Below, one piece after another: positions 251 to 22,955 of a stretch of 22,955 nt of DNA; the stretch's first letter is position 1, and every line of letters begins with the position of its first letter. Origin of the DNA: a virus; IMG/VR virus record IMGVR_UViG_3300040781_000186, positions 1 through 22,955 of that record; one strand, written 5' to 3'. The notes beneath the pieces are model-generated. The model was not told the origin of the DNA, ran no database searches, and was given only the letters and a program-made list of their open reading frames with translations. A program made the position numbers and the translations under genes.

Positions 251-910
251 ATGCGTTTAATTGCTTTTGGATGCAGCTATACTCAGGGCATAGGTCTTGA
301 GCCTCATATGATAAGCCCTTTCGTTTCGAAAAGATCACAACTGGCTTGGCCAGCCGTCTTGGGCAGAAAGTTGGCATGCAAGGTCATCAACAGGGGTGTG
401 GGTGGTTCATGTAACAAGCAAATCACGTATTCCATCATGAAAGTCAACTTTCGCCCAGATGATGTGGTGATGATATTGTGGACATACCCACTTAGACATA
501 GTTTACTTGTTTCACCACGACCCAGTGGCTGGGATGGGATGATGCATGGCGCCACCTGGGAGGAACATCGTCCATACCAAGAACCCATAGATGAATATTA
601 TAAGCGCATTGTCAACAACCCGTGTGATAGCCATTTCCTTACAGGCATATATATAAATCAAGCACATTTATATCTGAATAGTTTAGGCATTGAAAATTAT
701 CATTACCAGGCTAAAAACGACCAAAGAGAATTTTTTCCGTGGGTGGTGCCCGAGGTAAACCAAGGACTTCTGGGCCCTGATTATGCAAAACAGCAAGGTG
801 TTCCAGATAACGAGATTTACGCGCTGGATGGAAAGCACATGGGCACATGGGCACATGAAGAATTAGCACAAAGAATGTTTGACAAACACTTTTCAGATGC
901 TATAATATAA
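251..910 (+). CDS. SGNH/GDSL-type hydrolase-like protein
   Basis: This 219-aa protein opens with FGCSYTQG (residues 6-13), the block I signature of SGNH hydrolases, with Ser9 as predicted nucleophile. NRGVGGS (48-53) fits block II. Near the C-terminus DGKHMG (193-198) gives the Asp-x-x-His of block V (Asp193, His196), followed by the usual amphipathic helix. The block III Asn is not obvious (ILWTYP at 75-80), so the oxyanion hole may be unusual. Members of the superfamily cleave esters of lipids, acetylated sugars and similar substrates. In phages they are often virion-associated or modify surface glycans. There is no signal peptide. It sits between an unknown gene and a nuclease gene with gaps of only a few bases and no clear Shine-Dalgarno, suggesting translational coupling. 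The substrate cannot be told from sequence. Confidence 0.78.
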   Translation: MRLIAFGCSYTQGIGLEPHMISPFVSKRSQLAWPAVLGRKLACKVINRGVGGSCNKQITYSIMKVNFRPDDVVMILWTYPLRHSLLVSPRPSGWDGMMHGATWEEHRPYQEPIDEYYKRIVNNPCDSHFLTGIYINQAHLYLNSLGIENYHYQAKNDQREFFPWVVPEVNQGLLGPDYAKQQGVPDNEIYALDGKHMGTWAHEELAQRMFDKHFSDAII

Positions 911-912
911 CC

Positions 913-1590
913 ATGCTAGTAGAAAGATACAAATACCCCAAATTAACCCGCGAAATGCGGCAAGGCACCCGCCACTACACTGACGGCAAGAGTTCGGCCG
1001 TTCCTAGTGTGACCACCATCCTGGACAAGACGGCCGATAAAACACATCTGATAGCCTGGCGCAAGCGCATTGGTGATCAAGAGGCTGCCAAGCAGACTCA
1101 GCAAGCCGCTGGGTTTGGTACCATGGTTCACAACAGCCTGGAGAAATACAGTCTGGGCGAGGATTGGGAAATCACTGGCAACAACTTTGTACAGACCATG
1201 GCGCGCCAAGCAGTCACTCAGATTGTGGAAAACTGTATGCCCAGCGTGGATGAGTTTTGGGGCGTGGAAGTGCCGCTAATAGCACAGGACTTGTATGCTG
1301 GCACAACTGACGGTGTGGGTGTACACAAGGGTTCACCTGCTATTATTGATTTCAAGACCAGCAAGAAGATCAAGAAGCGTGAGTGGATCAAAGACTATTT
1401 CATGCAGACATGTGCGTATGCACTAGCACACAACGAAATGTTTGGCACAGACATCCAGAAGGGTGTGATCATGATGGCAGACAGAGAAGGCAACTACGCT
1501 GAGTTCATCATCGAAGGTGATGAGTTTGCTGAATACGCCAACATGTGGGGAGACAGGGTAGTAGAATACTACGCCAAGTTCACTGTGTAA
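913..1590 (+). CDS. PD-(D/E)XK nuclease of the RecB/Cas4-like type
   Basis: This 225-aa protein carries the full motif series of RecB/Cas4-type nucleases. His73 lies in GTMVHNSLEKY (69-79). Glu119 is in GVEVPL, Asp133 in TTDGVG, and the core IIDFKTSKK (144-152) supplies Asp146 and Lys148. The QxxxY motif follows as Gln165-TCA-Tyr169. These residues bind Mg2+ and cut DNA, usually as an exonuclease. No helicase domain is fused and no four-cysteine iron-sulfur set is visible, so it is a single-domain phage exonuclease used in recombination, repair or host DNA degradation. The start is ATG at 913, two bases after the SGNH gene's stop. It is unusual that a DNA enzyme lies directly before a fibre-like structural gene. 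A late promoter separates the two. Confidence 0.85.
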   Translation: MLVERYKYPKLTREMRQGTRHYTDGKSSAVPSVTTILDKTADKTHLIAWRKRIGDQEAAKQTQQAAGFGTMVHNSLEKYSLGEDWEITGNNFVQTMARQAVTQIVENCMPSVDEFWGVEVPLIAQDLYAGTTDGVGVHKGSPAIIDFKTSKKIKKREWIKDYFMQTCAYALAHNEMFGTDIQKGVIMMADREGNYAEFIIEGDEFAEYANMWGDRVVEYYAKFTV

Positions 1591-1636: not shown

Positions 1637-4600
1637 CAGACGACAACAACAGAATAATCATATCCCGAATTCAGCAACGCCGTGGTCAGAAGCAGGATCT
1701 GCCTCAGCCATTGCGTCCAGCAGAATTTGGCTTCACAACAGACACCCGCCAGGTTTTCATAGGCGCTGATCCAGAAGATCAGACTGCTAGCTACAACAAG
1801 AACCTGAGTCAATTTGAAGGCACTCTGAACGCACAGACGTTAACACAGGCCATCGCCACCAACCAGGTGATAGCATTTACTGTGCCATTCATTAAGTACA
1901 GCAAAGGAAAGTTTAACGGTACTAGCATACTGCGCCAGTGGGAACCAGAAGATGCGCGTACTAGTGTTACAGTTCAGCTAGCCTGTGATCACCTGGGACC
2001 AACATATAACGTATTTGCTGACAGCGTAACGGAATCCTACAGTTTGCCAGTCAGTTTTGATGGTGCTGATCAACAGATACAGTTTTCATATAATGCATTT
2101 GACGAAAACCCTATTCGGGTGGGTGATGCCTTAGAAGGCACTGGCATACCCAGAGCCAATCCAGCTGTACCAGTTACAGTAGCAGAGATTATTTCTGACG
2201 ATACTCTAACCAATAACGTTACCATTCGTTTCACAGGTTTCCAGAACCCCATTCCTGATCTTTCCAACACCATTGTGAACTTTACCCAGGGCAGTATCAT
2301 CAACAACATTACTGGGAGAGCTTTCCGTAACACTGACATCGTGGTACACAAGAATGGACACCAGATTGCTGGTGACCCAGATAACACTTTAGTTGATGCT
2401 CCTCGAAGCGCATACGAATATGCATTCAATGCCAGCAACGTGTTTGCAACTGGAACGCATAGCTTAACCTTGCGTAGTGCACCTAGCGCATTGGATGATA
2501 TCACGGTGGCTTACTACAGTAACGCAGCTATTGTGCAAGCACTGGAAGGAGTTCAATCTGGTGATGGTAATCGTTATATAACCAACAACGTGCGTGACCC
2601 CAGTTACCGTATCCGCAGCTTTTATGACGAATATAATTTGCCTGAATTCCTGCAACTAGACCCAGAGCTGATTCGTTTGAGTACCACAACAGGCTTGGGC
2701 TTTATTGGCTTGGAACGCAAGCATGTGTTGAGCACAGCGTTTGGTGAAGTGATAGAGAACCCCAGCAATGTGAGCTTAGGCGACCTAATGTTTTCACGCC
2801 TGGACCAAGAACTATCACTTGTCGGGGACGTGAGTTTGGTGGACGGCAACAATCGACAAGTTTATCAGGCAAACCTGGTGTTTGCATCAGAGAATGTGTT
2901 CAGTGAGATAACAGAAGCCAACGCTGATACCACATACCGTTACAATCGAATCACCTTTGCTGAAAACAGCAACGTGGACCTTTACATTCAGAAGAGTGCA
3001 AGTGAAGTCATTGGTGTAGACGAGAGTAATTCCACAATAACATTTGAAGTTCCTGGTGTAGACTTTGAAGTGCAGCGTGATGCAACGGTATCTCTCACCA
3101 CAAGCCGAGTGGGCAACCAGTTTGGTAATGCCAACAGTGAAGTATTCATCACTGTGACCATGGACACAGCAGGAATACTGCCTGGTGACTATGTGCGTGT
3201 TCTGGATACATCAGGCAACGTGGCAAATTGTGAGCTACATGACATCTGCTTCCAAGTACAAGAGCAAGGGTTCACTAGTGGATCCTTTGAGATTGTGTTA
3301 ACTGATGCTGATGCTGAGAGAGTGCACCCCAACAATGCTGCGTTTGTGGCAGGCAACGTGTCTTTTACAGAGAACAACGACAGTGTGGCAATTGTCAACC
3401 ACGGTGGCATTGACGCCTTTGGTGGCCTGGGCTTTGGAGTTGTGGACGAGGTGGTTCAATTGTATACACCCAAGCGGCATTTCTTTGAAGTGGACCCAGG
3501 TAATGTGTACTTCTTGAATGCAGTGCCCATCACACCAGTTAATGTGGAACTTGCATATGCCACTGAATATTCATACGATGTAGATAACAGTACAGCATTG
3601 CGTGATCAAGATCAAAAGACCATATTGGTACGCCAAGCACCAGGACAGAATCAGTTTGAGGACTTTAACTTCATTATAACTGGTGAATATTTCCCAGAGA
3701 TGCCTGCTACAATCAGCAACCTGGCTGCCATACCAGTTCTGGCCATAAACTTGAGCAGCGCAATCACAGTGCGAGATGCATTGGCTATTGTGAACACACC
3801 AACTGCCACAGTAAAGGTTACTGGCAGCTCTCCGTTAGTTGAGGATCTTTTCCCTCAACTGGACTTCCTGCCAGGCACAACTGATCAGTTGATACTCACA
3901 CAAGACCCCAGTGTAACCAGCATCGGTACTGGAGGAATTGAGTTCAGAATCTTTGATGATCCTGATACCGACACTTTGCAGACGCTGGGCTTTGAAGCAC
4001 GACGTTATGGACGTCAGACTGACACGGTGCGAGCCAAGTTGGAGCAGTGGCTTAATAAAGTAGTTGCTGACAAGAATCAAAACATTTTTAGTCGCGTGAT
4101 GACCATCGGTAGTGTTCCGGGATTCATAGGGCCAAACCAAGTGCCATTACCCATTACATATACTGATTATGAACTGTTGCCCAATCTGAATCCTCCCCTG
4201 GGAGGCGTGGATGCTCGTCCTAGCAACATCGTTGAACCGTATAAAATGTACCGTGTGCTGATTGATGAAGTATTCCAGGAAGTGCAATTTTGCTCACGCC
4301 AGGAAGCCAGTAATTTTAACACTATTGTGAACAGACTGTACACTGAGAGCCTGTTTGACAGACGCTTGGATCGCTTTGAAGGCACTCGCGGACTGCTCAA
4401 CCTCAAAGACAACATTGAAATCCTGACACGTGAAAGCAGCATCCTGTTTGGTGAGCGTGAAGTAACCTTTAGTGCACCGTTTGCTTTGAGCATTCTAAAT
4501 GAGCAACCACCATTTGTGGGTATCCAAGGCTTTAGTCTGGAAACCGCAATATACAATGCGTTCATAATTGACTACAGCATTATAGCCATCAACAATCCAC

Positions 4601-4965: not shown

Positions 4966-5403
4966 TTGTTTTCCAAGACAGCTTCCGCAAGTCAGAGACT
5001 TACGGCCTGGCGTGAGTTCAGGCAAAACTTTCCGGATGACGGAACTCTTGACACAGTGGTGCAAGCATTTGCCAACGCTCATGTGGACAAGCGATTCATA
5101 GACTACTACACACCTGAAAGCTGGCCCAATGTGTTTGAGATTGTACAAGACGGCCTGATCTGTCAGAGCGGTCTTACTCTGATAATGACCAGCACCCTGA
5201 GCTATTTGGAACTCATGAAAAGCACTGAAGCAGAAGTTGTGGTAATAAGTAACCATGTAACAGGACAGGAAGGACTCGTGCTGCGGCATGATGGCAAATA
5301 CTATAACTTTCTTCCGGGACAGATTGTGACGGAGGAATTTGTGCTAAACAATGCCACGATATTTGACCGTCACGTAATAGCTATAGATAAGCTCTGCAGT
5401 TGA
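4966..5403 (+). CDS. Unknown phage protein, probably late
   Basis: This 145-aa protein starts at TTG 4966, with AAGGAT overlapping the stop of the fibre-like gene and ending 5 bases upstream. No in-frame ATG lies nearby, so TTG is the best start. The N-terminal half is helical and charged (LTAWREFRQNFPDD, then residues like TVVQAFANAHVDKRFIDYY). The C-terminal half looks like a small beta domain (AEVVVISNHVTGQEGLVLRH, then DGKYYNFLPGQIV). No signal peptide, membrane segment or catalytic motif is visible. Its tight spacing behind the fibre-like gene suggests co-expression and a structural or assembly role, perhaps a fibre-associated factor, but I do not recognise a family. Its stop codon is overlapped by the -35 box of the nrdA promoter. 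Confidence 0.75.
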   Translation: MFSKTASASQRLTAWREFRQNFPDDGTLDTVVQAFANAHVDKRFIDYYTPESWPNVFEIVQDGLICQSGLTLIMTSTLSYLELMKSTEAEVVVISNHVTGQEGLVLRHDGKYYNFLPGQIVTEEFVLNNATIFDRHVIAIDKLCS

Positions 5404-5428
5404 CAAGATAAGTAATCGACTGTACAAT
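5400..5428 (+). promoter_or_regulatory. Sigma70-type promoter of the nrd operon
   Basis: TTGACA (5400-5405) and TACAAT (5423-5428) are separated by 17 bases: a consensus -35 and a 5/6 -10 box at ideal spacing. Predicted +1 is near 5435, about 21 bases before the nrdA ATG. The -35 overlaps the preceding stop codon. It lacks the TGC extension of the other sigma70-type promoters in the window, so it may have different strength or timing. Confidence 0.75.
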
Positions 5429-5455
5429 ACAAACTCTAACAACACAGGAACAACA

Positions 5456-7750
5456 ATGTCTCGACAAATCCTTATCACCAAACGCGACGGAACCAAAGAA
5501 GACCTCGATTTAGAAAAACTCCACAAAGTAGTATTTTATGCATGTCAAGGCATCGCTGGCGTCAGCGCAAGCGAAGTGGAAATCAAAAGCCACATCCAAT
5601 TCTATAATGGCATTACCAGCAGTGACATACAAGAAACTCTGATCAAGAGCGCCGCTGATCTAATCAGCGAAGAGACTCCCAACTATCAGTATGTTGCTGG
5701 TCGTTTGATCAATTATCATCTGCGCAAGCAGGTGTACGGCAAGTTCGAGCCAGACACGTTGGCAGAAATTACACAGCGAAATGTTGTTAGAGGTTTTTAC
5801 GATGCTGAGATACTTGAAAAGTATTCAGTTGAAGAGTTTGACGAACTGAATTCAGTCATCCGTCATGATCGTGACGAAAATCTCACATACGCTGCCATGG
5901 AACAATTCCGCGGCAAGTACTTGGTGCAGAATCGTTCGACTGGTGAAATTTTTGAAACACCGCAGGTTGCTTACATGCTGATAGCCATGACGCTGTTTGC
6001 TGACTACACTAAAAATCGTATGCAATGGGTACGTGACTATTACGATGCCATCAGCAACTTTGATATCAGCTTGCCCACGCCTGTGATGGCGGGTGTACGA
6101 ACACCGCAGAGACAGTTCAGCTCTTGTGTGCTTATTGAGTGTGATGATAGCTTGGATAGCATCAACGCTACCAGTAGCAGCATTGTCAAATACGTGAGTC
6201 AGAAAGCTGGCATTGGTATTGGTGCTGGCAAGATACGTGCTATTGGTAGTGCAATACGTTCAGGCGATGCCACCCACACTGGCGTTATTCCATTCTATAA
6301 ACTTTTCCAGAGCGCTGTGAAAAGTTGCAGCCAGGGCGGAGTACGCGGCGGCGCTGCCACATTGTATTATCCCATCTGGCACCTGGAAGTGGAAGACATG
6401 CTGGTGCTCAAGAACAATAAAGGAACTGAAGACAATCGTGTGCGTCACATGGACTACGGTGTGCAGTTCAACAAGTTGATGTATGAGCGACTCCTGAGTG
6501 GTAGAGATATCACTCTATTCAGCCCAAGCGATGTTCCTGGCTTGTACGAAAGCTTCTTTAACGATCAGGAACGTTTTAAGGAACTGTATGAGACAGCAGA
6601 GCGTAACACCCACATACGCAAGAAGCGCATTCCAGCAATTGAACTTTTTTCGTCGTTTGTAACAGAAAGAAAAGACACTGGTCGCATCTATTTGATGAAT
6701 GTGGATCACGCTAACACTCACAGCAGCTTCATGGAAGACGTGGCTCCCATCCGCATGAGCAACCTGTGTACAGAAATTAACCTGCCCACTGTTCCGCTCA
6801 AGAGTGCTGACGACCCTGACGGCGAGATTGCACTGTGTACCCTGAGTGCACTTAACTGGGGTAACTTCAAGACCAAAACAGACATGCGTAGGGCTTGTGA
6901 ACTGGCAGTACGAGGACTAGACGCTCTGTTGGACTATCAAGATTACCCTGTAGTGGCAGCCGCGCTGGCAACCATGAAGCGCCGCCCTCTGGGCATCGGT
7001 ATCATTAATTTTGCGTTCTGGCTGGCCAAGAATGACACCACTTATCAGAACCCCAACCTGGAACTCATAGACGAGTGGGCTGAAGCCTGGAGCTATTATT
7101 TGATCAAAGCCAGTGCTGACTTAGCAGTGGAAAAAGGTGCCATCTCTGGTAACATGGAAACCAAATACGGACACGGCATCACGCCCAACCAGACGTACAA
7201 GAAAGAAGTTGACGAGCTTGTGCCACACGTTGAGCGTATGCCCTGGAAAGAGCTCCGTGAGCAGCTCAAGCAGACTGGCATACGCAACAGCACATTGATG
7301 GCATTGATGCCAGCAGAAACCAGCGCACAGATCAGCAACAGCACAAACGGTATTGAACCCCCACGCAGCTTTGTGAGTATCAAGCAGAGCAAGCATGGTG
7401 TACTCAAGCAAGTGGTACCGCAGTATCACAGATTGAAGAACAAATACGACTTGCTGTGGGATCAGAAATCTCCCGTGGGCTATCTGAAAATATGCGCGGT
7501 CCTGCAAAAGTATATTGATCAAGGAATTAGCGTAAATACTAGTTACAACCCAGAACACTATGAGGACGAAAAGATCCCCATGAGTGAATTGCTCCAGCAC
7601 ATTGTGATGTTTTACAAATATGGTGGCAAGCAAATGTATTACAACAACACCCATGATGGTCAAGGCGAAATTGACATCAACAAGAAAGACACAGATGATC
7701 TAGCACCAGGCGAGATTGACGACGAAAATTGCGATAGCTGCACCATATAA
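5456..7750 (+). CDS. nrdA: Class Ia ribonucleoside-diphosphate reductase, alpha subunit (NrdA)
   Basis: This 764-aa protein reduces ribonucleotides to deoxyribonucleotides for phage DNA synthesis and is close to full-length E. coli NrdA. An ATP-cone occupies residues ~1-95 (starting RQILITKRDGTKEDLDLEKL), so dATP/ATP activity control is probably kept. Catalytic residues align with E. coli at an offset of about one: Cys224 and Cys461 (substrate-reducing pair), Asn436, Cys438 (thiyl radical) and Glu440 in SNLCTEI, and the radical-relay Tyr728-Tyr729 in MYYNNT. The C-terminal redox cysteines are Cys759 and Cys762, a CxxC instead of the CxxxxC of E. coli NrdA. The start is ATG 5456 with AGGA 6 bases upstream. 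It leads the nrd operon, and the beta subunit and glutaredoxin follow after one inserted gene. Confidence 0.98.
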   Translation: MSRQILITKRDGTKEDLDLEKLHKVVFYACQGIAGVSASEVEIKSHIQFYNGITSSDIQETLIKSAADLISEETPNYQYVAGRLINYHLRKQVYGKFEPDTLAEITQRNVVRGFYDAEILEKYSVEEFDELNSVIRHDRDENLTYAAMEQFRGKYLVQNRSTGEIFETPQVAYMLIAMTLFADYTKNRMQWVRDYYDAISNFDISLPTPVMAGVRTPQRQFSSCVLIECDDSLDSINATSSSIVKYVSQKAGIGIGAGKIRAIGSAIRSGDATHTGVIPFYKLFQSAVKSCSQGGVRGGAATLYYPIWHLEVEDMLVLKNNKGTEDNRVRHMDYGVQFNKLMYERLLSGRDITLFSPSDVPGLYESFFNDQERFKELYETAERNTHIRKKRIPAIELFSSFVTERKDTGRIYLMNVDHANTHSSFMEDVAPIRMSNLCTEINLPTVPLKSADDPDGEIALCTLSALNWGNFKTKTDMRRACELAVRGLDALLDYQDYPVVAAALATMKRRPLGIGIINFAFWLAKNDTTYQNPNLELIDEWAEAWSYYLIKASADLAVEKGAISGNMETKYGHGITPNQTYKKEVDELVPHVERMPWKELREQLKQTGIRNSTLMALMPAETSAQISNSTNGIEPPRSFVSIKQSKHGVLKQVVPQYHRLKNKYDLLWDQKSPVGYLKICAVLQKYIDQGISVNTSYNPEHYEDEKIPMSELLQHIVMFYKYGGKQMYYNNTHDGQGEIDINKKDTDDLAPGEIDDENCDSCTI

Positions 7751-11152: not shown

Positions 11153-12675
11153 AATTTCGGAGTAGACGTTTGGAAATCCAAGATCTTGTCGTATTCTCCT
11201 AGATCACCATCATAGTAAAAAGCAGGAGCACTATCTTGGTCATCGTCTTCTGGTGGCACAAGTTCTTGGTCAGATTCAGCGTACACACCAACAGAATACT
11301 CTTCCACCATGACAGTGTCGCCTAGAGTTCCACGAATGGCAAACATGTAGATCCCGGGAACTTGCGTTTTATCGTCCATCTTATTGGTGTCGATTATTAC
11401 ATTGCCTGTGGCTAAATCAACAGTGATCCATGGAGGCGGGACAGCAAAATCCAAAATAGCTACATCGGTTGCTGTATCCTGAATCCCCAAATTAAGAGTA
11501 ACCACTTGACTCGCTTGTACCTCCGCTATTCTTCCGCGAAGTTGAGATAAAGATTCTTCCTGAAATGAAAACGTTTTGGTAATGGCGGCGTTAACACTGC
11601 TATAGTCAATGTTTCCTGAGGTATTATCAAAATTGAGTAGATACGGGCCTTCCTGAATACCTTTTGCTATCAAGTGTGTTTTAATTTCTGGAACAGATTC
11701 AGCTGGACTATCTTCGAGGTAGTGTGTTACCACGCCTGCAACGATTCCAGCACCCAAACTGGTTCCAGCACTTACTGCATAAGTGTTGTCTTTTGTTGCT
11801 ACTGAAATCTTTTGTCCTGGCGCAAAAATATCTACCTGTGCACCAAAATTTCCTGCTACTGGTTTCTGGTCTGGGTTTAGAGTGTTACTAAATTGACTTA
11901 CGGCAAAGTCGTAATCATGTGCGCCCACCGTGATGATCTCTTCAACACCAGCAGGACTCAGAGTGTTAACGTCTACACCTTGGTTACCAGCCGCTGCCAC
12001 CACCACCAAGCGTTCCTGGTCAAACTGACGAATGTAAGCATCCAAAAAATCGTTCTGGGTAATAACCCAGGGAAGACATATTACTTTGATCTTGTAGAAG
12101 GTTTTTTCGTGGTGTTCTGCTAGAGCGTTGAATGCTTCAATTAAATCAGACAACAATATTTGTCCTTTGTTTGTGTCAAAGATTTTGAGTACTTTGAGAC
12201 TGGCGGTGGGTGCGGTGCCAATGTTTTGGCCCACGATCAGACTGGCCACACTGGTGCCGTGCCCTGCGTTGTCATTGCTGTCTGGAAACGCGCTATAAAT
12301 TGTCTCAATGTCCGCGCCATCGAACTCATCAATTTCAGCGTTAACGCCTGTGTCCATGAGGTAAACAGTTTGAGCTTTACCGGTGTACTTGAATAGCTCA
12401 TGGGCATGGGTACCTTGATAGCCTTTTTGCCCTGTTGGATCAACCAACAGCTTCAAGTGGTCCGTGGTGTAGCTTTCACCCTGGAAATCTACTGTAGCAT
12501 CTGCAGGTGCAGAACCCACGACATGTTCTACAGAATCAAGACTTTGTGCATCAACCAGGAAGGTGAATCCTGGCTTGAAGTGTTTGATGATGGTGATCCC
12601 TGCTTGTTCAAGACTTTCACGTGCCTGTCTAAGCGACAATATTTTGCTAACATCCAGGGTTACGATGTATTTCAT
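11149..12675 (-). CDS. Subtilisin-like serine protease (S8 family) with C-terminal Ig-like region
   Basis: This 508-aa protease carries the complete subtilase set: Asp108 in YLMDTGV, His139 in AGHGTSVAS, oxyanion Asn231 in AAAGNQG and nucleophile Ser306 in SAGTSLGAG (canonical GTSMA(A/S)P is relaxed to GTSLGAG). Residues 1-75 resemble an I9-type inhibitory prodomain. Residues ~385-470 (for example PPWITVDLATGNVIID) look like an Ig/cadherin-type beta-sandwich. The tail is acidic (PPEDDDQDS). No Sec signal is seen, so it is probably packaged in or acts on the virion, or acts in the host cytoplasm at lysis. Start ATG 12675 has GGAG 5 bases upstream and a leftward late promoter at 12726-12719. 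It is not the T4 prohead protease gp21 type. Confidence 0.9.
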   Translation of the reverse strand: MKYIVTLDVSKILSLRQARESLEQAGITIIKHFKPGFTFLVDAQSLDSVEHVVGSAPADATVDFQGESYTTDHLKLLVDPTGQKGYQGTHAHELFKYTGKAQTVYLMDTGVNAEIDEFDGADIETIYSAFPDSNDNAGHGTSVASLIVGQNIGTAPTASLKVLKIFDTNKGQILLSDLIEAFNALAEHHEKTFYKIKVICLPWVITQNDFLDAYIRQFDQERLVVVAAAGNQGVDVNTLSPAGVEEIITVGAHDYDFAVSQFSNTLNPDQKPVAGNFGAQVDIFAPGQKISVATKDNTYAVSAGTSLGAGIVAGVVTHYLEDSPAESVPEIKTHLIAKGIQEGPYLLNFDNTSGNIDYSSVNAAITKTFSFQEESLSQLRGRIAEVQASQVVTLNLGIQDTATDVAILDFAVPPPWITVDLATGNVIIDTNKMDDKTQVPGIYMFAIRGTLGDTVMVEEYSVGVYAESDQELVPPEDDDQDSAPAFYYDGDLGEYDKILDFQTSTPKF

Positions 12676-16050: not shown

Positions 16051-16073
16051 TGATATGCTTATAGAACATATCA
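16051..16073 (+). promoter_or_regulatory. Hairpin sequestering the start codon at 16055
   Basis: TGATATG (16051-16057) pairs perfectly with CATATCA (16067-16073) around a 9-nt loop, plus a G-T pair outside. ATG 16055-16057 is inside the 5' arm. RNA beginning at the predicted +1 (16055) would keep only three of the 5' arm bases. Confidence 0.5.
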
Positions 16074-17197
16074 TCACGCCTCGACCCAGAAAGTATCCTG
16101 AAAATATCAGCTACAGTGATGTCACTGACGAGTATGGGTCCGAGTTTGCCATGCAATTTATGGAGGCGCAATTATATGCCGAGAGCAACTCCAGGACAAT
16201 CCTTGAGAGTAGCAACACAGATACTGTGAATTATTTCAAGAAGCTGCCAAGCACAAAACCCAAAGCGGGACAAAAATATTATGGCATGCACTTGGCATTG
16301 ATGCATGAATCAATCCAAAGCTTGGCTAGTTTTCATGGCACGGTTTTGAAAGTACAAAGAGCACAATCGAAATCCACGATTGATTCAAGTGCCATTGACG
16401 GCGTCGAATATACGGTGGAACTGGATAACGGTGAAACTGTGGTCTATCCAGGAATACTGAGTAATAATGTCCGCATGCGTGTGTTATTCTTTGATGATTT
16501 ACGCAGCTTTAATCAAGTGAAGGCACAGTTAAGAATGTCTCACAATGTCAACTTCAAAAAAATACAAGAGCATGTGTTTCGTGATCGCACGGGATTCATG
16601 CTTACGGAACGCTATATCAATCTGATCGGTAACGACCCCAAAAAGTCACAGTATGCCGATGAGGTTTTTGCTCTGTTGCAGAAAGCCTACGCTGACATAG
16701 GTGGTATTCGCGGTAATGGATTTAACTCACCTGAAGACATGGTAGCCAAAATACCTTTCTGGAAGCTGGTTAAAAAGGATGGACGCATCGTGGCAGCAGT
16801 GTTGTACAAAGACAAGAACGGACGCAAGAGTGTAGCAGTGGGTACAGACGGTAGTCCAGAAGCCAAACGGGCATATCAGGATGCCATCAAGCAAGAACCC
16901 AAGCGCAGCTACAGCGAGAAAAGTAAAGCCAGTTTGGGGGCGTTCATCAAACATGCGGGCAATATAGAGCAACATGCGCAGACACCTGAGCAAGCTGAAA
17001 AAGTTCTCCAAGAGCCTGTGATACCCATGGCAGGCATGAGACCAGAAGACTGGCCTGTGGACGATAAAGAACGTGCAGCAACCCTGCAAACCATACAAAA
17101 ATATCCTGAGCTTGAGCGCTATGGCTACTTCAGAGACATTGGTGGGGTCAACAGCTTCAAGGTCATGGTGGGCACACCCAACCTGCCCATCAAATAG
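16055..17197 (+). CDS. Unknown 380-aa late protein, possible GNAT-like region
   Basis: ATG 16055 opens the protein (MLIEHIITPRPRKYPENISY). The N-terminal third is charged and mixed. Residues ~115-135 form a beta pair (VEYTVELDNGETVVYPG). Residues ~235-275 (IPFWKLVKKDGRIVAAVLYK, then DKNGRKSVAVGTDGS) loosely resemble the central strands and acetyl-CoA loop of GNAT acyltransferases, but I see no convincing catalytic residue. The C-terminal part is Glu/Gln/Pro-rich and helical, ending in a small beta segment. A late promoter six bases before the ATG and a missing Shine-Dalgarno suggest leaderless late expression. Coupling to the glycosyltransferase stop 15 bases upstream is the alternative. It could be a virion or modification protein; I do not recognise the family. 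Confidence 0.72.
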   Translation: MLIEHIITPRPRKYPENISYSDVTDEYGSEFAMQFMEAQLYAESNSRTILESSNTDTVNYFKKLPSTKPKAGQKYYGMHLALMHESIQSLASFHGTVLKVQRAQSKSTIDSSAIDGVEYTVELDNGETVVYPGILSNNVRMRVLFFDDLRSFNQVKAQLRMSHNVNFKKIQEHVFRDRTGFMLTERYINLIGNDPKKSQYADEVFALLQKAYADIGGIRGNGFNSPEDMVAKIPFWKLVKKDGRIVAAVLYKDKNGRKSVAVGTDGSPEAKRAYQDAIKQEPKRSYSEKSKASLGAFIKHAGNIEQHAQTPEQAEKVLQEPVIPMAGMRPEDWPVDDKERAATLQTIQKYPELERYGYFRDIGGVNSFKVMVGTPNLPIK

Positions 17198-17200
17198 CAC

Positions 17201-17228
17201 TTGACATTCACCCCAGATAGTGTATCAT
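17201..17228 (+). promoter_or_regulatory. Sigma70-type early promoter (copy 1)
   Basis: TTGACA (17201-17206), 16-base spacer, TATCAT (17223-17228), preceded by TG. Predicted +1 is about 17235. It lies just behind the stop of a late gene and drives a small membrane protein gene. Confidence 0.75.
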
Positions 17229-17275
17229 GGTACTGTAACCTCTCAAGGAGATGTACCATGCGATACGATCACTAT
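17216..17275 (+). promoter_or_regulatory. Long interrupted hairpin hiding the start of the 17258 gene, 5' arm inside its promoter
   Basis: ATGGTAC (17227-17233) pairs with GTACCAT (17253-17259), then GTATC (17222-17226) with GATAC (17262-17266) and ATAGT (17217-17221) with ACTAT (17271-17275): 17 pairs with bulges only on the 3' side. The Shine-Dalgarno is in the loop and the ATG at the stem. The whole 5' arm lies upstream of predicted +1. Confidence 0.72.
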
Positions 17276-17413
17276 AAAACACCCCGTTCCCAGAGCCCCA
17301 GCCTGGCGTGCCTGCAATGGCGTGGGGAACCCAAGCCCAGCACCCTGAAAAGAATTCGCAGATCACTGTTTTGGACAGGCATTTTTGTGCTGTGTCTTTC
17401 AACTTATTTCTAA
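17258..17413 (+). CDS. Small early membrane protein (51 aa), unknown function
   Basis: The start is ATG 17258 because AAGGAG (17245-17250) is 7 bases upstream. The frame is open back to 17201 but that would include the promoter. The first ~30 residues are basic and polar (MRYDHYKTPRSQSPS, then PKPSTLKRIRRS) and residues ~36-51 form a hydrophobic C-terminal segment (LFWTGIFVLCLSTYF), so the protein is probably inserted in the inner membrane with a basic cytoplasmic face. Small membrane proteins of early phage regions often act in host takeover or superinfection exclusion, but no motif supports a specific role. Expression comes from the strong promoter at 17201, and a hairpin would block translation from upstream late read-through. 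Confidence 0.7.
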   Translation: MRYDHYKTPRSQSPSLACLQWRGEPKPSTLKRIRRSLFWTGIFVLCLSTYF

Positions 17414-17441
17414 ACTCCAACAAAATCAAGCACTTACAGGC

Positions 17442-17469
17442 TTGACAGATCCGGTCGTTATGCTATCAT
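17442..17469 (+). promoter_or_regulatory. Extended -10 sigma70-type early promoter (copy 2)
   Basis: TTGACA (17442-17447), 16-base spacer, TGC plus TATCAT (17464-17469). Predicted +1 is about 17476. It lies within GGCTTGACA and ends with TGTAGGTT, both shared with the copy at 18918. Confidence 0.8.
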
Positions 17470-17500
17470 ATATGTGTAGGTTGGAGTTAAGGAGTTAGAC

Positions 17501-21183: not shown

Positions 21184-21734
21184 AACGTAAACTAACAACT
21201 GGCGGCACGTCAGCCAATCTACCCATGGGCTGGGGTGAGCCTTGGGGATATCCAAGAAATAAAACATTCATTTGGCTGGGCGAAGAAGCAGCTACTGAAG
21301 ACGATATCGCTCGCCTGCGTAGCAAGGTACCTGGCGCCAAAGTTGACAAGCTTTCGCTCGTGGGAACACATGCCCGTGACTGGAATGCCAAGCAGTACGT
21401 GGACAAGTTTGGTGATCGTGAAGCACTGCTCAAGTCCGGTAAGCTGGGTGACCCTTGGGAAACACTGAACTGCCCAGGCGGTCTGGGATCATGGGAATAT
21501 CAGAGCCAGGATCTGCCAGCAGGTTTTGATCGTGTGATGGCGCCACGCAAATGGTTGTGGGATGACCGAGTCAAGCCTGTGAAGCTAGAGCGCAGCAAAG
21601 GCGGTGAGCCTGCGCATATTGTAGACAAAGGTGACGGTCACCGTGATAGTTACATTGGCGGACGGCCCAAGACTCCCGCAGCAGACATCTATAAGCTCAA
21701 GTGGGATGCTGAGACACAAAAGCACAAGCTGTAA
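21180..21734 (+). CDS. Unknown late protein (184 aa), Trp-rich
   Basis: ATG 21180 has AGGAG 6 bases upstream and a late promoter, so it is probably late and virion- or assembly-related. The product (MERKLTTGGTSANLPMGWGE, then PWGYPRNKTFIWLGEEAATE) is rich in Trp, Gly, Pro and Lys, largely without hydrophobic helices, and has acidic-basic mixed regions (RVKPVKLERSKGGEPAHIVDK). No signal peptide, membrane segment or catalytic motif. The Trp/Gly/Pro-rich pattern is like some structural linker proteins, but no family is recognised. Confidence 0.78.
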   Translation: MERKLTTGGTSANLPMGWGEPWGYPRNKTFIWLGEEAATEDDIARLRSKVPGAKVDKLSLVGTHARDWNAKQYVDKFGDREALLKSGKLGDPWETLNCPGGLGSWEYQSQDLPAGFDRVMAPRKWLWDDRVKPVKLERSKGGEPAHIVDKGDGHRDSYIGGRPKTPAADIYKLKWDAETQKHKL

Positions 21735-21736
21735 TA

Positions 21737-21790
21737 GATCTCATAAATAGTTGCAAGTCCCGGCGCAAGCCGGGCGCAACACAGGAGATC
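21737..21790 (+). promoter_or_regulatory. Composite hairpin hiding the Shine-Dalgarno of the lipoprotein gene
   Basis: GATCTC (21737-21742) pairs with GAGATC (21785-21790), which overlaps the GGAG Shine-Dalgarno (21784-21787). Inside, GTTGC (21750-21754) pairs with GCAAC (21776-21780) and CCCGGC (21759-21764) with GCCGGG (21769-21774), capped by a GCAA (GNRA) tetraloop. The first 5' arm lies upstream of predicted +1 (21755). The inner GNRA hairpin would remain at the 5' end of the late mRNA. Confidence 0.7.
21742..21749 (+). promoter_or_regulatory. Late promoter (CATAAATA) for the lipoprotein gene
   Basis: CATAAATA matches the late consensus at 7 of 8 positions. Predicted +1 is 21755, four bases before the GNRA hairpin. 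The ATG is 39 bases downstream of +1. Confidence 0.74.
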
Positions 21791-21793
21791 AAC

Positions 21794-22177
21794 ATGAAAC
21801 AAATTCTAACCCTGGCACTTGCCTTGGTTCTGGTAGCTTGCGCACAGCAAGACATCAGCCCCACAGGTTCAGCCATGCAGGGAACACCAGTCAACCTTCG
21901 CGCAGAAGCATATGTACAAATGTGTGCTCGTGAGCCCAACAGTGTTCTTTGTCCTCAAGACATATCTGTAACCAACAGCAACGCTGATGAAGTCATGCGA
22001 CAGGTTTGCCAGGATGGTAACTCATTCTTCTGGTGCGATCCAGTTGATGCACAGCCTGCTACTGGCACACGCATTCAGCGTGACCCCTCATACATGCAAG
22101 GCGAAAAGGTTCGAGTAAAAGCTCAGGCATATCAAGATATGTGTGCGCGTAATCCAGAATCGGTGCTGTGCCCATGA
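21794..22177 (+). CDS. Late lipoprotein with three Cys-x8-Cys repeats
   Basis: This 127-aa protein has a type II signal peptide: MKQ, hydrophobic LTLALALVLV, then the lipobox LVAC with lipidated Cys16. The mature part holds three repeats with Cys-x8-Cys (44/53, 72/81 and 117/126). The first and third are 29-residue copies (residues 26-54 and 99-127) sharing SxMQG, AxAY, MCAR and SVLCP, identical at 18 of 29 positions. The middle copy is divergent (VMRQVCQDGNSFFWCDP). It is expected to sit in the periplasm, disulfide-linked, and anchored in a membrane. Late expression with a GNRA leader hairpin suggests a role late in infection, perhaps lysis, envelope disruption or exclusion. It overlaps the protease gene by ATGA, so the two proteins may act together. 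Confidence 0.85.
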   Translation: MKQILTLALALVLVACAQQDISPTGSAMQGTPVNLRAEAYVQMCAREPNSVLCPQDISVTNSNADEVMRQVCQDGNSFFWCDPVDAQPATGTRIQRDPSYMQGEKVRVKAQAYQDMCARNPESVLCP

Positions 22178-22728
22178 ACTTTATAGAGCGTATTATTGCA
22201 TGGATCAAGGAGTTTTTGGGCACGTTCGGCGAGCAGTCCAGAGATGATGTACCGCCACCACCAGCACCACCACCAGAGCCCATACCCGAACCACCCAAAC
22301 CCCGAATCAGAGATGGAGTAGTCATGATGACCAAGAAAGACCTAGAGCAACTGCAAGCCCGAGCATTTCGCTTGTTCAATTACGAGTTCGACGACCGACA
22401 GTACAATGTCATGGAAGACTGGCGCAGTCACGCTGACGTGCTAGCAGAAGGCAAAGAGTTCACAGACGATTGTGACGGCTATGCCTTTACCATTTGCGAG
22501 ACCTTGATCAACATGGGTGCGCCCAAAGAGAACGTCAAGTTCATCGTGTGTGAGACCGAAACAGGAGAAGGCCACGCTGTAGCAGGATACACCCTGGGTG
22601 ATAAAACCTACATCCTGGAAAATCGTTATCGCGAAGTATATGACTGGACCGACCGTCCCGGATATATCTGGAACTTCTTCATGAAGTTCGACGAGCCAGG
22701 TCAGTGGTACAAGGTCACAAACGGCTAA
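22174..22728 (+). CDS. BTLCP transglutaminase-like cysteine protease with proline-rich linker
   Basis: This 184-aa protein has three parts. Residues 1-20 (MNFIERIIAWIKEFLGTFGE) form an amphipathic helix without a cleavable signal. Residues ~25-45 are an acidic-proline linker (VPPPPAPPPEPIPEPPKP). Residues ~55-180 are a bacterial transglutaminase-like cysteine protease (BTLCP) domain, with Cys100 in DDCDGYAF, His134 in GEGHAVAGY and Asn150 in ILENRY (third catalytic position). Many BTLCP proteins act in periplasmic protein processing; phage members are poorly known. ATG 22174 makes an ATGA overlap with the lipoprotein stop. GTG 22168 is an alternative start. Coupling to the lipoprotein suggests an envelope role. 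Confidence 0.82.
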   Translation: MNFIERIIAWIKEFLGTFGEQSRDDVPPPPAPPPEPIPEPPKPRIRDGVVMMTKKDLEQLQARAFRLFNYEFDDRQYNVMEDWRSHADVLAEGKEFTDDCDGYAFTICETLINMGAPKENVKFIVCETETGEGHAVAGYTLGDKTYILENRYREVYDWTDRPGYIWNFFMKFDEPGQWYKVTNG

Positions 22729-22734
22729 AAAGGC

Positions 22735-22762
22735 TTGACAATGTCTCCAGTCATGCTATCAT
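22735..22762 (+). promoter_or_regulatory. Extended -10 sigma70-type early promoter (copy 4)
   Basis: TTGACA (22735-22740), 16-base spacer, TGC plus TATCAT (22757-22762). Predicted +1 is about 22769. A perfect palindrome-like hairpin ATGGTA-TTC-TACCAT (22761-22775) spans the end of the -10 and the start site, and could be an operator or a leader hairpin. Confidence 0.8.
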
Positions 22763-22799
22763 GGTATTCTACCATTAGCAAGGAAGTAGCATGGACTGG
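22747..22799 (+). promoter_or_regulatory. 12-bp start-sequestering inverted repeat, 5' arm inside the promoter
   Basis: CCAGTCATGCTA (22747-22758) pairs with TAGCAT (22787-22792) and GACTGG (22794-22799), with one bulged G (22793) and no mismatches. The 3' arm contains the ATG (22791-22793). The 5' arm covers the promoter spacer and -10, upstream of +1 (22769). Shine-Dalgarno AAGGAAG (22780-22786) is in the loop. Confidence 0.75.
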
Positions 22800-22955
22800 A
22801 GCATTTTACTACCGTACGTCATAGGCACCGTCATGGGTCTGTATTTCGGCTTCAAGCGTGGTATACGCATGGGCGCCAATCTCACAGTCATTCAGCTCTG
22901 CGCAGCAGGCTATCTTAAGTACACGGGCAATCCTGCCCAAGACGTTGAACTGTAC
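22791..22955 (+). CDS. Start of a small early membrane protein (runs off the window)
   Basis: ATG 22791 has AAGGAAG 4 bases upstream and lies 22 bases after the predicted +1 of the promoter at 22735. Fifty-five codons are visible (MDWSILLPYVIGTVMGLYFG, then FKRGIRMGANLTVIQLCAAG) and the frame remains open to the window end. Residues 4-20 form a membrane helix followed by a positively charged FKRGIR, so an N-out/C-in orientation is likely. It is expected to be cut by the edge. No family recognised; its promoter and position suggest another early membrane protein like the one at 17258. Confidence 0.75.
   Translation, partial: MDWSILLPYVIGTVMGLYFGFKRGIRMGANLTVIQLCAAGYLKYTGNPAQDVELY

Follow-up and report, generated by a model that had tools for sequence, protein, structure and literature searches.

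Hairpins over translation start sites have been described for the T4 genes e (lysozyme), soc, 49, I-TevI and segB and for mobE of phage Aeh1 (PMC3014915, PMC2988022), and all genes under such hairpin control are late genes (PMC2988022). In e, soc, 49, I-TevI and mobE, the stem formed in upstream-initiated RNA covers the start codon and/or the Shine-Dalgarno sequence, and RNA from the own promoter, which is placed within or beside the 5' arm, escapes; in the T4 cases, early or middle read-through is silenced, while the own promoter is late. A related fold-back inhibition acts on translation of the transposases of IS10 and IS50, in which read-through RNA from outside folds over the start and RNA from the own promoter does not. 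It differs from the locus described here in its mobile-element context, as a protection from outside promoters without a temporal switch.

In the present work, a stretch of 22,955 nt from the virus record IMGVR_UViG_3300040781_000186 (the window), from a T4-like phage, was analyzed, in which a promoter beginning at position 22735 overlaps one arm of a long stem. Like the T4 hairpins, this stem is predicted to cover the start codon in upstream-initiated RNA, and the predicted transcription start would allow the RNA of its own promoter to escape. Differently, the own promoter at 22735 is of sigma70 (early) type, the read-through would come from a late-type unit, and the Shine-Dalgarno sequence itself is unpaired. 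The T4 arrangement, in which a late promoter drives a late gene embedded in early or middle RNA, was thus not found at this site. The 22735 site may be a reversed-timing variant of the e, soc and I-TevI hairpins, which is plausible and unproven; no description of an early-gene hairpin in this reversed order was found in a small search of the open-access literature.

Results

Promoter and gene context of the 22735 site

The promoter scan located a TTGACA box (-35) at 22735-22740 and, after a 16-nt spacer, an extended -10, TGC-TATCAT, at 22754-22762, all features of the site being on the plus strand. The early promoter of the preliminary description is therefore host-type (TTGACA-16-TGC-TATCAT) and sigma70-type by sequence. 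The transcription start predicted from promoter spacing, 7 nt after the -10, is 22769 (±2), and its placement anywhere in 22760-22775 left the fold result unchanged. The -35 begins 6 nt past the stop codon (22726-22728) of a BTLCP gene (Peptidase_C93, PF06035; 22174-22728; Pfam E 3.7e-11), the last gene before the promoter, and no terminator was found in these 6 nt. The -10 ends 28 nt before the ATG at 22791 of a gene for a 69-aa membrane-type protein (22791-22955 in the ORF list), which continues past the window and is complete in an identical contig (L001:3001-3210).

The first gene of the upstream unit encodes a small lipoprotein (21794-22177 in the ORF list; G015 ortholog L146:4190). The pattern scan found a T4-type late promoter box, CATAAATA, at 21742-21749, 52 nt before this gene, which agreed with the late lipoprotein/BTLCP unit assumed earlier. 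Other T4-late-type boxes (NATAAATA) were detected in the window, lying 13-56 nt ahead of genes 1633, 13888, 16055, 21180 and 21794, and one was also present ahead of the minus-strand gene starting at 12675. Relatives of the 69-aa gene in G003 and in contig 3300025769_000762 stand in operons with several TTGACA...TG-TA promoters; no late box was found near them, and their starts opened at 4.8-5.0 kcal/mol. Based on the late box ahead of the upstream unit and on the early-promoter operons of the relatives, the small membrane-protein gene can reasonably be read as an early gene that follows a late unit.

Structure of the stem

Scoring stems laxly, with cheap bulges, gave no information, and a strict score was used instead; by this score the best stem of the whole window was that at the 22735 promoter. 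The hairpin had been described as 12 pairs with one bulge. It was found at that place and was longer in the fold, with 19 pairs and two bulges between 22740-22759 and 22786-22805. The core comprises 14 Watson-Crick pairs, formed by CTCCAGTC (22745-22752) with GACTGGAG (22794-22801) and, inward of a bulged G (22793 or 22794), by ATGCTA (22753-22758) with TAGCAT (22787-22792), the inner 12 being those already described. A T22759-G22786 wobble and the outer pairs AATG/CATT (22740-22743 / 22802-22805) complete the stem, with T22744 bulged. The 5' arm includes the last -35 base, the whole spacer and the first half of the -10, and the 3' arm begins 5 nt ahead of the ATG and extends as far as codon 5, so that pairing takes in the start codon and codons 2-5; 12 pairs of the stem lie outside the promoter consensus. 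The Shine-Dalgarno sequence AAGGA (22780-22784) stays free in a 10-nt internal bulge. In the loop of the 19-pair stem sits a 6-bp hairpin, the perfect dyad ATGGTA-TTC-TACCAT (22761-22775), which spans the predicted transcription start. The segment 22740-22805 folded at -26.6 kcal/mol (z = -4.4), which was equaled by none of 200 shuffles, and an Rfam covariance-model scan of 21500-22955 gave no match up to E = 1.

Dependence of the start region on the RNA 5' end

The geometry was as first described, the 5' arm lying entirely upstream of the predicted transcription start and the 3' arm over the start codon. Because the 5' arm precedes the predicted start at about 22769, RNA beginning there cannot form the stem. 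When the fold was repeated from 22769, as the preliminary description had proposed, the energy was -8.0 kcal/mol (z = +1.6) and the 19-pair stem was gone. The cost of opening positions -13 to +5 was 17.7, 16.7 and 9.8 kcal/mol for RNA 5' ends at 22735, 22745 and 22750, and 5.2 and 5.4 kcal/mol for ends at 22760 and 22769. With 150 nt of upstream RNA added, the start stayed closed, at an opening cost of 15.9 kcal/mol. The start is predicted to be closed in any RNA entering from upstream and open in RNA from the 22735 promoter.

Chance and selection

Given this promoter and this start, the stem score was matched in 8 of 20,000 shuffles and the energy in 3 of 4,000, and when the non-consensus promoter bases alone were shuffled, 4 of 1,001 sequences reached the opening cost. 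Over all shuffle tests, the site-conditional p was about 0.0004-0.004. When whole windows were dinucleotide-shuffled, 30% held an equally good stem somewhere, and after correction for about 20 comparable promoters of the lineage the level was roughly 0.01-0.08. The stem is unlikely by chance at 22735, but not "very unlikely" once the search is allowed for; the earlier wording was an overstatement in view of the shuffled windows and of the roughly 21 comparable promoters examined. In 48-49 sigma70-type promoters drawn from several phages, the excess of pairing gave p 0.05-0.08, and over the 48 promoters without the 22735 site p was 0.21 by permutation, which indicated no general rule. The read-through effect was not systematic among 21 related promoters. 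Evidence that the stem is selected is thin.

Late-to-early junctions in the lineage

Two genomes were used for comparison. G005, of 64 kb, comes from the same sample and shares the promoter signature, and the NrdB of G015 (101 kb) is 77% identical. The effect at each promoter was expressed as read-through minus native opening cost in kcal/mol. Among the late-to-early junctions whose promoter abuts the preceding stop or lies close to it, the effect was +11.8 at 22735, +7.6 at 17201, +5.4 to +6.2 at G015:36604, +3.8 at G005:20927, -0.4 at G015:40388 and -0.7 at G015:83122, with +0.1 and +0.8 for nrdA in the window and G015. All other promoters ranged from -5.3 to +4.6, the early-to-early ones giving -5.3 (17442), 0.0 (18918) and +2.6 (L001:3610). 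The top three effects all belonged to late-to-early junctions (class comparison p 0.07), including both large-effect sites of the window, 22735 and 17201. The combined p over 8 late-to-early junctions was 0.05 with 22735 and 0.36 without it.

The sibling site (TTGACA-16-TATCAT, 17201-17260, plus strand) begins 4 nt past the stop of gene 16055-17197. In its stem, CATGGTAC (17226-17233) pairs with GTACCATG over the ATG at 17258, more weakly than in the 22735 stem (p 0.048 by promoter shuffling). The stem of the G015 ortholog (p 0.034) is formed over the start by GACA-AACTGTT and AACAGTT-A-TGTC, at the same place and with a different sequence, and its effect was +5 to +6 kcal/mol when 40 nt of preceding sequence were included and +3.3 with 100 nt. 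Of the evolutionary hints that the lineage uses the arrangement, this pair, a stem separate from that at 22735, is the best.

At one late-to-early junction of G005 (L085 reversed, near 2150-2240), an intrinsic terminator, GCGGGCT...AGCCCGC-CCAACTTTTTT, was present and a start-covering stem was absent. Such a terminator would likewise insulate early genes from late read-through, but it acts on transcription and needs room past the stop codon, of which 22735 has 6 nt. The nrdA junction of the window (5400) carried no start hairpin; the nrdA promoter sequence itself (TTGACAAGATAAGTAAT, window 5400-5456) is kept in G015 (L156:1501, G015:28141), likewise with no start hairpin.

Orthologs and copies of the 22735 site

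The only ortholog of the 22735 junction found was that of G015, with the order late box, lipoprotein, BTLCP (PF06035), second lipoprotein, promoter and a gene whose product is related to the small protein (27% identity, E 1.9e-6); the late box at the place orthologous to 21742 reads GATAAATA. No start-covering stem was found at this junction, and the effect was about 0. The comparison with orthologous loci proposed in the preliminary description thus went against conservation of the hairpin, since at the large evolutionary distance of G015 the promoter was present and the hairpin was not; the stem is not kept there, whereas the 17201 junction keeps one of different sequence. The promoter of this orthologous junction, G015:40388 (L146:5889-5922), is itself a 13-bp palindrome from the -35 to past the -10, TTGACAGTGTACT...AGTATACTGTTAA, with AATAAATA just upstream. 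The exact 22735 site recurred only in contig 3300040801_003997, whose 100% identity along 13,390 nt makes it uninformative on conservation. A search of 50,697 phage records found no DNA or protein homologous to the site. By NrdA, the nearest named relative was Stenotrophomonas phage DLP6 (62.5% identity), which has almost no such promoters.

Other promoters with repeats or shared elements

In the unrelated phages of L030 (3264-3320) and L041 (reversed, 3017-3075), the layout resembles that at 22735, and a sigma70-type promoter overlaps the stop of a terminase-like gene. A strong stem joins the -10 of this promoter (CATGGCGGCTCC) to the start region (GGAGC-ACCATG), and the pairing survives two one-sided changes; no further relatives of this site were found. 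A start-covering stem in L038 was ruled out as a read-through case, the upstream gene being divergent. In contig 3300021356_000044 (L084 reversed, 813-900 and 1089-1160), two promoters carry strong inverted repeats, which reach from the spacer or just past the -10 into the leader (ACGGGACCGT...ACGGTCCCGT; GGTAAGTGTCTC...GAGACACTTACC).

One class of the early promoters of the lineage shares a block of about 40 nt right before the -35 (TTATTTTAAAACTCCAAT-AAATCAA--ACTTAC-TGG), and most of these promoters have the leader motif ATGTAGGTTAA after the -10. Block promoters were located at window 17394-17500, L001:3562-3640, L146:2612-2700 and 6498-6600, L147 ~1591, L148 ~1934 and ~5695, and L075 (reversed) ~1453. 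The hairpin-bearing promoters have neither the upstream block nor the leader motif. The 17442 promoter is flanked by a perfect 9-bp inverted repeat, AACTCCAAC/GTTGGAGTT (17413-17421 / 17480-17488), whose 5' half belongs to the shared block. At window 879-915, 6 nt separate the end of a near-consensus TTGACA-16-TGC-TATAAT promoter from the ATG at 913, and this promoter, if used, would give a leaderless RNA.

Discussion

At 22735, the sigma70-type (early) promoter lies within the 5' arm of the predicted stem and the start codon of its gene within the 3' arm. RNA made by this promoter from about 22769 would lack the 5' arm and keep its start region open, while read-through RNA from the late lipoprotein/BTLCP unit would carry both arms, fold, and be poorly translated for this gene. 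In this way, the stem would shield the early gene from late read-through at a place where the promoter abuts the preceding stop and leaves no space for a terminator. The analysis shows the sequence, the fold energies and their dependence on the RNA 5' end, the promoter and late-box motifs and the gene order, and from these we infer promoter timing, start site, read-through, translation block and selection of the stem. The silence of the gene in late read-through RNA, as first proposed, may follow from the folding, from which we infer it; the unpaired Shine-Dalgarno sequence counts against silencing, because ribosomes could still dock. Selection for weaker translation of read-through RNA is less likely than the weakening itself, as a physical effect. 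That the stem is a read-through silencer, selected or at least physically effective, is a tentative reading that we place just short of even.

Incidental complementarity is the explanation that competes best with it, and we regard it as quite possible, though clearly short of even. Complementary tetramers to hexamers occur in the -10 consensus (TGCTATCAT) and in the usual start context (AGCATG, CCATG), and one of them may have been extended by chance through the spacer into a long stem without a selected role. The equal stems in shuffled windows and the missing hairpin at the orthologous G015 junction fit this explanation, as does the lack of an excess, once 22735 is removed, both in the 48 promoters and in the late-to-early junctions. 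It agrees less well with the low site-conditional p and with the pairs beyond the promoter consensus, and the 17201 stem together with its G015 ortholog points toward read-through hairpins instead.

A role at the DNA level appears improbable, in which a repressor would use the dyad over the transcription start as its operator, the longer repeat being a by-product. The perfect 6+3+6 dyad and the palindromic promoter of the G015 ortholog are in line with an operator, but the G015 palindrome differs in sequence, the pattern search of 126 fetched loci found the dyad only in this virus and its copies, and the outer 19-pair stem would be left unexplained. Slightly less probable still is that the stem ends or processes the late RNA, as a weak terminator followed by AUUUUAC or through an RNase III-type cut, since the UUUU (22803-22806) right after a long stem and the lack of another terminator ahead of the early genes are outweighed by a loop of about 26 nt, an A/U stem base, just 4 U, absence from a scan restricted to short loops with 5-T tails, and the quite different look of the real terminator at the G005 junction. 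An intrinsic terminator, an Rfam family and a recurring operator were all considered and were unsupported by the scans.

A broader reading that includes the 17201 and G015:36604 sites is that, in this lineage of T4-like phages, early promoters placed directly after late genes carry the antisense of their gene's start, as a time-reversed T4 hairpin that would switch early membrane-protein genes off in late read-through RNA; we consider this unlikely on present grounds, if worth stating. If real, it would mean that the T4 hairpin timer is bidirectional and can also mute early genes in late RNA. Its predictable signature would be complementarity between the spacer of a promoter and the start codon which that promoter drives, and in co-directional phage genomes with tight packing it could replace a terminator in little space.
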